Below are positions 1,396-3,737 of a stretch of 24,733 nt of DNA, in pieces. Under the pieces are notes generated by a model. It saw only the letters and a program-made list of their open reading frames with translations. It was not told the origin of the DNA and did no database searches. Made by a program: the position numbers and the translations under genes. This DNA comes from a virus, in IMG/VR virus record IMGVR_UViG_3300015603_000020, positions 1-24,733 of that record; one strand, written 5' to 3'. The stretch's first letter is position 1, and each line of letters starts with the position of its first letter.

Positions 1396-1510
1396 TGGTG
1401 CCGCTGCCGGGAATCGAACACCGGATCAACTCCTTGTAATGGAAATTGAATGCTGTACGGATCCTTGACAGGATCACTTTATAGTGGTTTTACCATTAAA
1501 CTACAGCGAC
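1396..1510 (-). tRNA. tRNA-Val (TAC), interrupted by about 40 nt in the anticodon stem
   Basis: The ends form a good tRNA: acceptor GTCGCTG/CAGCGGC, A73 and CCA, D-arm GTTT...AAAC, and loop ATTACAA (anticodon TAC, U33 present). The 3' half of the anticodon stem is GGAGT (1429-1433). Its partner ACTCC is split into ACT (1483-1485) and CC (1441-1442) by 1443-1482. Without the insert the molecule is a normal 75-nt tRNA-Val. The T-stem carries one extra base (CCGGTG against CCCGG), so the gene may instead be decaying. The insert folds as GATCC-TGTCAA-GGATC. Confidence 0.7.
1443..1482 (-). other. 40-nt insert within tRNA-Val (intron-like or mobile hairpin)
   Basis: This segment separates bases 29 and 30 of the tRNA-Val anticodon stem; the boundaries are uncertain by a base or two. 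It is far too short for a group I or II intron and has no ORF. A 16-nt stretch of it matches the spacer hairpin at 3601-3654 at 14 positions (AAGRATCCGTNCAGCA), suggesting a shared origin. Confidence 0.55.
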
Positions 1511-1677
1511 ATTATCGGAGATCGACTAATAATATATCATAGTGATCATCAGTCCATATTGGTGTCCCGCTTATACCCTACAATATGCATCAAGAGACAC
1601 AGGAGATCATAGGAGCCGAACATAAAGTGGTCCCAACAGTTAGTGTATAACATAGTAACTAAGTAGTCGAGATAAAG
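1511..1677. other. Spacer between tRNA-Val and tRNA-Lys
   Basis: No convincing ORF or tRNA here. Two tRNA-3'-end-like pieces appear on the minus strand: GGGACCA ending at 1628, followed by CTTTAT just as tRNA-Lys is, and GGGACACCA near 1559-1567. They may be relics of lost tRNAs. An inverted 7-mer TCGACTA/TAGTCGA sits near the two ends. Confidence 0.4.
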
Positions 1678-2978: not shown

Positions 2979-3248
2979 CTATTGTAATTGTTGTAGCATT
3001 TCTGCTAATCTAACTTTGATCTGTTCTATATCAGGATCTTCATAAAATTGTGTAGATAGAAATTCATTTAATTTTTGTCTGAACGGGATAATCTTACTAT
3101 TAAGAAAACTATTGAGGCGTATACCTCTCAATTTCTTAAACATCTGTAAATCTGCATATAAGACGGAAAATTCTTTTTCATAATCTTCTGATAATTGTTT
3201 TATTACAATTATACTGCGATTTATATTTTCGATCTCAAATAATCTCAC
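2979..3248 (-). CDS. Small charged protein of unknown function
   Basis: An 89-residue, highly charged, mostly helical protein (KQLSEDYEKEF near residue 17, C-terminal KVRLAEMLQQLQ). It has no membrane segment or recognisable motif. The start is a GTG at 3248 that overlaps the TGA of the upstream gene (GTGA), a classical translational-coupling arrangement. Downstream is tRNA-Thr, 5 nt away. Its pairing with the equally small upstream protein suggests the two act together or are produced in fixed ratio. I do not recognise the family. Confidence 0.65.
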   Translation of the reverse strand: MRLFEIENINRSIIVIKQLSEDYEKEFSVLYADLQMFKKLRGIRLNSFLNSKIIPFRQKLNEFLSTQFYEDPDIEQIKVRLAEMLQQLQ

Positions 3249-3409
3249 TTAATGTCATCCTCTATCACAACGTTATATTCATTTATTTCGTCTTCTGTGA
3301 GACTCTCTCTTATGAATTTACTTCTATCTTTTCTAAATTCCTTCAACCACGCAATCTGTTCTTCACAGAATTCGACCAGTTGTTCTTCATTTTCTATAGT
3401 TCTTTGCAT
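3245..3409 (-). CDS. Small acidic protein of unknown function
   Basis: A 54-residue, Glu-rich helical protein (EEQLVEFCEEQIAWLKEF at about 8-25; acidic C-terminus). The open frame extends upstream through a hairpin spacer and tRNA-Asp, but GGAG lies 5 nt before the ATG at 3409, so I start there; another in-frame ATG is 18 nt upstream. Its TGA overlaps the GTG of the following gene. No family recognised. Confidence 0.62.
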   Translation of the reverse strand: MQRTIENEEQLVEFCEEQIAWLKEFRKDRSKFIRESLTEDEINEYNVVIEDDIK

Positions 3410-3450
3410 ACTATCTCCATAGTTCATGCAAGTACTTATCAAGATAAAGC

Positions 3451-3504
3451 AGACTACACATTTGGTTTCATTTACAGTGAATTTTAAAGTGCTGTAGGTA
3501 GTCT
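3451..3504 (-). other. Spacer hairpin, CAGCAC type (copy A)
   Basis: AGACTAC (3451-3457) pairs with GTAGTCT (3498-3504), with an inner minus-strand TTCA-CTGTAAA-TGAA loop. It begins 8 nt after the CCA of tRNA-Asp. It aligns with copy B at 3601-3654, sharing CAGCAC and TAAAATTCA on the minus strand. The outer stems differ in sequence but both pair fully. Confidence 0.6.
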
Positions 3505-3512
3505 TTGAATAT

Positions 3513-3588
3513 TGGCGCCGTAGACGGGAATTAAACCCGCCGCGAACTGATAGACAGTCAGTTATCACCATCAGGTGGACTCTACGGC
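3513..3588 (-). tRNA. tRNA-Asp (GTC)
   Basis: 76 nt with encoded CCA, perfect acceptor GCCGTAG/CTACGGC, perfect anticodon stem ACTGA/TCAGT, loop CTGTCTA (GTC), discriminator G73 as required for Asp. The T-loop is TTTAATT. Confidence 0.91.
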
Positions 3589-3600
3589 ATAAATTAAAAC

Positions 3601-3654
3601 AGAATCCTTATTTTTCAATTAAAAGTTGAATTTTATAGGTGCTGAACGGATTCT
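3601..3654 (-). other. Spacer hairpin, CAGCAC type (copy B)
   Basis: AGAATCC (3601-3607) pairs with GGATTCT (3648-3654), and the inner stem is TTCAA-CTTTTAA-TTGAA on the minus strand. It begins 7 nt after the CCA of tRNA-Ala copy 2. It is homologous to copy A with compensating changes in the outer stem, and part of it resembles the insert in tRNA-Val. Confidence 0.6.
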
Positions 3655-3661
3655 TTAAATT

Positions 3662-3737
3662 TGGTGGACCTGTGGAGGATCGAACTCCAATCTAAGCATT
3701 GCAAGTGCCTCGTGTACCCCAGTATCACTACAAGCCC
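3662..3737 (-). tRNA. tRNA-Ala (TGC), copy 2
   Basis: 76 nt with encoded CCA, acceptor GGGCTTG/CAGGTCC, anticodon stem AGGCA/TGCTT, loop CTTGCAA (TGC), discriminator A73, T-arm TGGAG-TTCGATC-CTCCA. Confidence 0.9.

Follow-up and report, generated by a model that had tools for sequence, protein, structure and literature searches.

Short RNAs with anticodon loops in a jumbo-phage tRNA cluster: candidate Y-RNA-like partners of a Ro60-like DUF2828 protein

The window (the whole stretch of viral DNA analysed here, an IMG/VR record of 24,733 b) is a fragment of a jumbo phage and contains genes for a major head protein, a portal and a tail sheath, together with a cluster of tRNA genes. Within this cluster two short, similar hairpins lie in the spacers just beyond the CCA ends of neighbouring tRNA genes. 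Are these signals for the processing of the tRNA transcript, remnants of tRNA genes, or RNAs with a function of their own? By head-protein comparison the phage has near relatives of up to 385 kb, the nearest named phages being PA5oct-like (76%), followed by Phosso, BF, CBB and GAP32. The same head protein, at 99% identity, is found on a 3.8-kb contig (L456, CAIYES010000369.1) from a Bacteroidales bin, which is a weak hint at the host or else a case of mis-binning. Elsewhere in the window, a 987-aa protein with an endosialidase chaperone domain (PF13884; 13795-16758) is probably a tail fibre or spike, and a search with a 126-aa DUF3307 gene gave no relative.

The two elements, here called copies A and B, are both on the minus strand and have the same architecture (Table 1): a 7-bp basal stem that joins the ends, a conserved strand UNCAGCA, and an inner hairpin. 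An earlier note made from the sequence had described them as homologous, and its description of the parts is confirmed. The outer stems differ in sequence and are fully paired in both copies; CAGCAC, TAAAATTCA and a TTCA/TGAA inner stem are common to both, the inner stem of B having one extra pair (TTCAA/TTGAA); and the outer stems start 7 nt (B, after tRNA-Ala) and 8 nt (A, after a tRNA-Asp-like gene) past the CCA. The inner hairpins have the features of a tRNA anticodon arm, namely a stem and a 7-nt loop with U33, a purine at position 37 and a sequence known from phage tRNAs. The loop of A is exactly CUGUAAA, on 4 bp, and that of B exactly CUUUUAA, on 5 bp. Copy B occupies the spacer between tRNA-Ala and the tRNA-Asp-like gene. 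The latter was not called by ARAGORN and gave with cmscan only a tRNA-Sec match of 31.9 bits (cut-off 47). The 5' end of a 108-aa reading frame (3245-3571) runs over copy A and the tRNA-Asp-like gene, and the frame probably has its true start further downstream.

Table 1. Positions in the window of copies A and B, their parts, and the tRNA genes discussed
Feature	Position	Strand	Basis or remark
tRNA-Ala	3662..3737	-	ARAGORN; Rfam 48.2 bits; upstream of copy B
Copy B, putative Y-RNA-like RNA with Lys(UUU) anticodon-loop effector	3600..3658	-	R1 72.0 bits (training copy)
B, basal stem 5' arm AGAATCC	3648..3654	-	sequence; covariation in relatives
B, conserved strand TTCAGCAC	3639..3646	-	alignment A1
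B, anticodon stem-loop TTCAA-CTTTTAA-TTGAA	3614..3630	-	loop 3619-3625 = Lys(UUU) anticodon loop
B, basal stem 3' arm GGATTCT	3601..3607	-	sequence; covariation in relatives
tRNA-Asp-like gene, anticodon GTC	about 3513..3588	-	between B and A; repeat family D1
Copy A, putative Y-RNA-like RNA with Tyr(GUA) anticodon-loop effector	3450..3508	-	R1 61.0 bits (training copy)
A, basal stem 5' arm AGACTAC	3498..3504	-	sequence; covariation in relatives
A, conserved strand TACAGCAC after stem	3489..3496	-	alignment A1
A, anticodon stem-loop TTCA-CTGTAAA-TGAA	3467..3481	-	loop 3471-3477 = Tyr(GUA) anticodon loop
A, basal stem 3' arm GTAGTCT	3451..3457	-	sequence; covariation in relatives
Insert-bearing tRNA, CCA end present	1396..1513	-	Rfam tRNA 32.8 bits over 1399-1510

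Taken alone the two copies are not beyond chance, because their folding z-scores (-1.2 and -1.5) are unremarkable and a fixed-spacing motif pattern with up to 3 mismatches, which found B only, also matched 29 of 100 shuffles; significance comes from relatives. Motif searches of viral contigs yielded few of these. An exact scan gave four stretches, chance-like and devoid of tRNAs, and a looser one at least 120, among which 80 (L128-L207) were checked with the covariance model R1 described below and L196 only (32.7 bits), perhaps also L197/L207, looked real. The better phage matches to the Rfam family RF01414 lie within tRNA clusters and look alike, reading UUAAAG, stem, UNCNGCAA, AT-rich interior, stem, CUGUUUU. 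The constant module of the family is a 7-bp stem joining the ends (AAAG...CUGU), followed by the UNCNGCAA strand.

R1 was built from 22 copies of related jumbo phages. In the window and ten fetched cluster loci it recovers 25 short copies at 51.9-76.2 bits; since 22 of these belong to its training set, the weight falls on other tests, namely covariation, anticodon loops, gene neighbourhood and a pairing-free motif test. The basal stem of the training copies has pairing in 99.4% of 154 cells and shows 27 two-sided changes; its covariation is 0.511, as against 0.143 +/- 0.026 when shuffled and at most 0.135 when slid. Among 25 copies outside the training set all 175 cells are paired, two-sided changes number 55, and covariation is 0.873 versus 0.204 in shuffles. 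The copies in the underlying alignments (A1, A2 and A5) came from models or rules that favour pairing, for which the pairing-free test is the control; likewise, lists made with stem-and-motif regular expressions include evident chance folds in coding DNA (e.g. L120:8336, L283:4150). The earlier note had argued from compensating changes between A and B that the fold is under selection, and had proposed a covariance model and a scan of related tRNA clusters as the check. Relatives were found, and the compensatory changes in both sets of copies uphold the argument.

What does the stem enclose? As a reference for anticodon loops we took 210 tRNA calls from the window and the ten cluster loci, which gave 93 different 7-mers, with two from undefined calls dropped. 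Of 24 distinct short copies, 11 contain the exact anticodon loop of a phage tRNA on a stem of 4 bp or more, and the other 13 do not; shuffled interiors gave a mean of 0.06 and a maximum of 1 (300 shuffles), reversed interiors 2, and reverse complements 0. Besides Tyr(GUA) in A and Lys(UUU) in B, the identities in this first set are Lys, Tyr, Asn, Phe, Thr and Leu. A second set comprised 36 hand-picked R1 matches (span up to 80 nt, E<=0.05, same-score repeats omitted) and two copies from contig G046. Exact loops occur in 11 of these 38 (shuffles 0.09, maximum 1) and are absent from 27, and 14 of 38 combine a 5-bp stem with U33 and A37 (shuffles 0.28, maximum 3). A narrower regular-expression count, on a set largely overlapping the second, found anticodon loops in 2 of 27 only. 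When loops were counted first and the stem ignored, 21 of 34 copies had one, versus 5.9 expected, with under half of the occurrences also well paired; over all loop-first occurrences pairing exceeded that with exchanged flanks (70 of 110 versus 46). The stems of these arms vary (TTCAA/TTGAA, TTACA/TGTAA, TTTGA/TCAAA, TTTCA/TGAAA, TTAGA/TCTAA). The anticodons are varied too, and thus imply no single nuclease target.

These loops bear on the function that the earlier note had put forward, a cis signal by which the polycistronic tRNA transcript would be processed, or its 3' ends protected. The position of A and B, 7-8 nt past a CCA, fits such a signal, as does that of many copies in relatives, which also follow closely behind a CCA. 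Anticodon loops, however, are not explained by a processing signal, and most tRNA spacers of the window have no element (two short copies as against 18 called tRNAs). The same elements also occur beside genes for a DUF2828/DUF7788 protein (DUF2828 below) with no adjoining tRNA.

The first such case was contig G046, where two copies with anticodon loops (Ser GCU and Met CAU) lie just upstream of a gene matching PF25043 and PF11443. (A TnpB-like gene, OrfB_IS605, at L457:6348-7586 ends just upstream of the same two elements.) PF25043 is present in 14 of 66 phage records. Among 24 records longer than 200 kb to which both R1 and the PF25043 search were applied, it occurs in all nine with an R1 match (E<=0.05) as against 4 of the 15 others, a Fisher probability of 5e-4 that is uncorrected for kinship, which weakens the count. 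The R1 matches of three records (G037, G041 and G042) were unconfirmed in place by a stem-and-motif scan, and without these records the figures are 6/6 versus 7/18 (about 0.013). No PF25043 gene was found in the window, the record being a fragment. Directly beside the PF25043 gene no convincing element was seen in the isolates BF, CBB, GAP32, XbC2 and Kaldavass or in G037, G038 and G040-G042; BF, GAP32 and G040 have copies among tRNA genes elsewhere, XbC2 and Kaldavass carry copies away from the DUF2828 gene, and CBB has a weak match only. RNA ligase was considered as another possible companion and rejected: PF09511 occurs in 7 of 15 records and is absent from G005, G016 and G018, so that it does not track the elements.

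A wider survey started from the protein. DUF2828-like genes occur in 676 of 50,697 phage records, and from at least 553 viral loci matched by a DUF2828 alignment the best 80 were collected. At E<=1, R1 gave 93 matches in 59 of the 80 loci. The gene's strand carries 91 of these matches, and 76 are no more than 500 b from the DUF2828 gene, a zone that makes up 10% of the non-gene sequence. Because near duplicates occur among the loci, these counts are not all independent, and since loci were fetched with at most 6 kb on each side of the gene, they describe layout within loci and not the share of all elements that lie near the gene. When the 16 loci nearest to the training clade are left out, 57 of 67 matches are within 500 b and 65 of 67 on the gene's strand. 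In the remaining 21 loci R1 found no match at E<=1. Nineteen of these were inspected and several have stem and motif beside the gene (e.g. GGTTCC-TTACAGCAA); others, L504, L514, L518 and L548 among them, have no element by this looser rule.

The pairing-free test used only the motif TNCNGCAA, in 47 of the 64 loci L489-L552, and asked whether each occurrence has an exact 7-bp partner. This is so for 69 of 112 occurrences that share the gene's strand and are no further than 800 b from it; the figures are 2 of 22 near the gene on the opposite strand, 27 of 240 far from the gene and 6 of 73 inside it. One could take A and B for tRNA genes in decay, or for hairpins that arise by chance in AT-rich spacers, which would agree with their unremarkable single-sequence folding and with the tRNA pieces found in some relatives; this reading is contradicted by the covariation, by this positional test and by the anticodon-loop counts, and we reject it as extremely improbable.

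Named phages, with hosts distant from one another, show the same arrangement. Stem and motif are found beside the DUF2828 gene in Mycobacterium phage Faith1 (three elements, after gp55), Listeria phage LP-048 (three) and Campylobacter phage NCTC12673 (two); Felixounavirus ESCO49 has two elements in the tRNA cluster that follows its DUF2828 gene, and Felixounavirus elements are placed at L554:3242 and 3410; in Cronobacter phage S13 elements are beside the gene or in the tRNA genes after it; and phiM12 has one about 1.3 kb upstream. Scanning Aeh1 gave no element, and Munch one fold only, on the opposite strand and inside a coding gene. Given elements beside DUF2828 genes that adjoin no tRNA, anticodon loops, and the permuted tRNA-like domains of longer members (below), a main role in tRNA processing is unsupported, and we consider it very unlikely. 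The reverse is plausible, namely that tRNA end processing would free A and B from the tRNA transcript.

Elements that sit just upstream or downstream of a DUF2828 gene could also simply regulate that gene or its neighbours without any protein partner, in which case the fold of the DUF2828 protein described below would be a coincidence of linkage. Against this, elements occur on either side of the gene and in tandem, and in some phages they are in remote tRNA clusters while the gene is elsewhere. RNA partners that mimic tRNA and are closed by a stem are known for Ro60 proteins (PMC8394870). We regard plain regulation as quite unlikely.

For the DUF2828 protein itself, most of the annotations seen are hypothetical protein or RNA-binding protein, and some members, Faith1 gp55 for example, are annotated as RNA-binding or Ro-like. 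The structure of the G018 protein, predicted with a 56-sequence alignment (pLDDT 86.1, pTM 0.86), has helical repeats and a vWA domain. All ten of its best PDB matches are Ro60/TROVE proteins, at 11-17% identity in the Foldseek rows. With a second aligner the model superimposes on 1yvr with Z 23.3 and rmsd 3.6 over 402 residues, on the Ro60 of phage phiLo with Z 16.0 and on Deinococcus Rsr with Z 13.2; the first non-Ro match has Z 10.2 and is confined to the vWA part. The predicted model thus gives phage DUF2828 proteins the Ro60 fold, a ring of helical repeats plus a vWA domain. A sequence search of the PDB with DUF2828 found nothing. A canonical Ro60 was considered and rejected for the element-bearing phages: PF05731 (TROVE) is present in only one of 26 records, that of Phosso, which lacks an R1 match, and in none of the other 25 (eight of which have PF25043) or of the window's clade. 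Phage Ro60 is under study by others, the Ro60 of Thermus phage phiLo having been released as PDB 9l5y in December 2025, and a review of jumbo phages covers their enzymes for RNA repair and mentions that a few of these phages have a ROT/TROVE protein (PMC7824862). The literature searched, which takes in few subscription journals, gave no report of these phage RNAs or of DUF2828 function.

Anticodon arms are not the only content of the module. Longer copies hold tRNA pieces that are often permuted, with the T-arm first and the D-arm last, and some have an acceptor stem capped by a UUCG or UGUAAA loop (L273:1044, L123:6613). In some permuted domains a CCA lies between the halves (L541, L553). Conversely, some tRNAs that end in CCA carry the same stem within an insert, closed by a 6- or 7-nt loop (mostly UGUMAA), at L116:15407, L117:7056, L122:2658 and L125:15213 and in the window. 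The window example is the tRNA at 1396-1513, whose insert holds the closed stem TGATCC-TGTCAA-GGATCC (1476-1459) followed by GTACAGCA (1458-1451) and, as read from the sequence, probably sits between the D-arm and the anticodon arm.

Such inserts raise an alternative in which the stem and motif are the core of a small tRNA intron or permuted pre-tRNA system: closed forms would be spliced to tRNAs, and open (permuted) forms would give circular RNAs or, once their ends are processed, tRNAs. The closed stems in CCA-bearing tRNAs argue for it, as do the frequency of permuted tRNA-like domains, the CCA between the halves of some, and the fact that the ends AAAG and CUGU would join into the same loop. 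The short copies, however, have no tRNA exon halves, and in many of them the anticodon loop is intact; a functional tRNA end does not result from an acceptor stem with a UUCG or UGUAAA cap; and in DUF2828 loci the elements follow the DUF2828 gene. We therefore hold the intron system to be unlikely.

Several further arrangements were observed. Upstream of DUF2828 genes lie long RNAs, 206-251 nt, that share the basal stem and have a UNCAGCAA-type strand (L473:3974, L476:4972, L478:5408, L482:5121, L485:5115, L486:5410, L487:1265); several share an inner stretch near AACATCCTNGGACGATGTAAAA, and an Rfam scan of two copies (in L273 and L275) gave no match. Seven tandem elements directly upstream of the DUF2828 gene at L541:1529-2504 and L543:4874-5849 mostly contain tRNA-like pieces, some with CCA between the halves, and are joined by one with a Lys(UUU) arm. 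A weak tmRNA match (26.1 bits, cut-off 47) lies in a phage tRNA cluster at L541:7292-7362. At L116:17981 and L117:5238 the closed stem UAAUUC-UGUAAA-GAAUUU sits inside an acceptor-like stem (CGGGACA/UGUCCCG) with CCA after it; this may be an effector of acceptor-minihelix form, a counterpart to the anticodon arms. Downstream of the DUF2828 gene in Cronobacter phage S13 (L553:3378-3620), permuted tRNA-like elements share sequence with, or lie next to, an annotated tRNA-Ser (121 nt) and tRNA-OTHER (113 nt); the tRNA annotation of S13-type phages may be misleading.

The interpretation that we favour, and consider probable, is that A and B belong to a Y-RNA-like family partnered with a phage Ro60-like protein and use an anticodon arm as effector. 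This suggests that such phages carry a Ro-type RNA-protein particle of their own. By analogy, the constant stem and the UNCNGCAA strand would hold the phage Ro60-like ring. The effector is exchangeable by sequence: an anticodon stem-loop in A, B and many relatives, a permuted tRNA-like domain or a longer RNA in others. It is quite probable, we infer, that the RNAs are expressed and that the module binds the Ro60-like protein much as Y RNA stems bind Ro60; A and B would act in trans, their DUF2828 protein being encoded at another place in the genome. More tentatively, the displayed anticodon arm may serve as a tRNA lure or as a gate on the particle: as a lure it would, for example, compete for host enzymes that cut or modify anticodon loops, and as a gate it would occupy the Ro ring until displaced by damaged tRNA. 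If the favoured interpretation is true, DUF2828 gains a fold and an RNA partner, Ro60-Y RNA biology reaches a large set of phages, and there is a kind of tRNA mimic that shows the anticodon arm only. Tracts of tRNA genes in large phages may then hide tRNA-shaped decoys that tRNA finders miss, a point relevant to the question of why these phages have so many tRNAs.

How do these RNAs compare with known systems? Like the tRNA genes of phages, A and B lie in a tRNA cluster and carry anticodon loops, but they have no acceptor, D or T arm and no CCA, and are missed by ARAGORN. With Y RNAs in general they share a basal stem made of the two ends and a separate effector domain. The closest arrangement is that of YrlA with Rsr/Ro60 (RF02553), which also has stem-joined ends and a tRNA-mimic effector. 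The place of the YrlA gene beside a Ro60-type gene is paralleled by relatives in the fetched DUF2828 loci; the record of A and B is a fragment in which no PF25043 gene was found. Longer phage members share the YrlA order of T-arm, sealed acceptor and D-arm, the best scores being those of L273 (41.9 bits), L541 (40.1) and L556 (35.2), all of which cover effector positions 23-89 of 114 only and are below the cut-off of 69. A and B are unmatched by RF02553 and hold an anticodon arm with no D or T arm, neither the phage basal stem nor the UNCNGCAA strand agrees with the consensus of YrlA, and the protein is DUF2828/DUF7788, not PF05731. Plain YrlA RNAs are thus rejected, the good matches being effector-only and all under the cut-off; the one full-length match (26.0 bits) spans two ordinary tRNAs and is rejected also. 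For YrlA, PMC7790460 suggests that the tRNA-like domain could be a competitive inhibitor of anticodon nuclease.

The other likeness is to the Class I RNAs of Dictyostelium (RF01414). In a permissive Rfam scan RF01414 matches B with 24.9 and A with 23.3 bits, the cut-off of 41.5 not being reached. Over 37 related phage records 18 matched at E<=1, with up to 35.7 bits and none above the cut-off, and 5 of 14 control genomes matched as well. At E<=0.1 the model matches 28 times, in 17 of 30 phage records with DUF2828; 26 of these matches share the gene's strand, 13 are no more than 500 b from the gene, and 4 of the 14 control genomes match; the best phage score is 38.6 of 41.5 bits. With every score below the cut-off and control genomes matching, what the sequences indicate is a likeness and not membership. 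PMC7919456 describes Class I RNAs as 42-65 nt long, with a variable interior, a 6-bp covarying end stem, an AAG start, a CUGU end and an 11-nt motif after the 5' arm, and as unique to dictyostelids, with none reported outside; its main text lacks the word 'anticodon'. The phage RNAs have an end stem of this type with compensatory changes, and the ends read AAG...CUGU in B and AAG...CUGC in A. The Class I motif (letters CCUUACAGCAA, from the Rfam RF01414 consensus) is not found in A and B, whose strand is about one nt shorter and ends in CAGCAC; it is present in full in other phage copies, e.g. L505, L509 and L513. Class I RNAs are further marked by a DUSE promoter and by being expressed in dictyostelids. 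Dictyostelids probably have a DUF2828-type protein. A broader scheme, in which hundreds of phages deploy a Ro60-type particle with anticodon arms and permuted tRNAs as interchangeable baits against host anticodon-loop enzymes, and Class I RNAs are its eukaryotic branch with a DUF2828-type partner, is doubtful as a whole. The partnership proposed here for A and B would, if true, provide a testable lead on the Class I RNAs.
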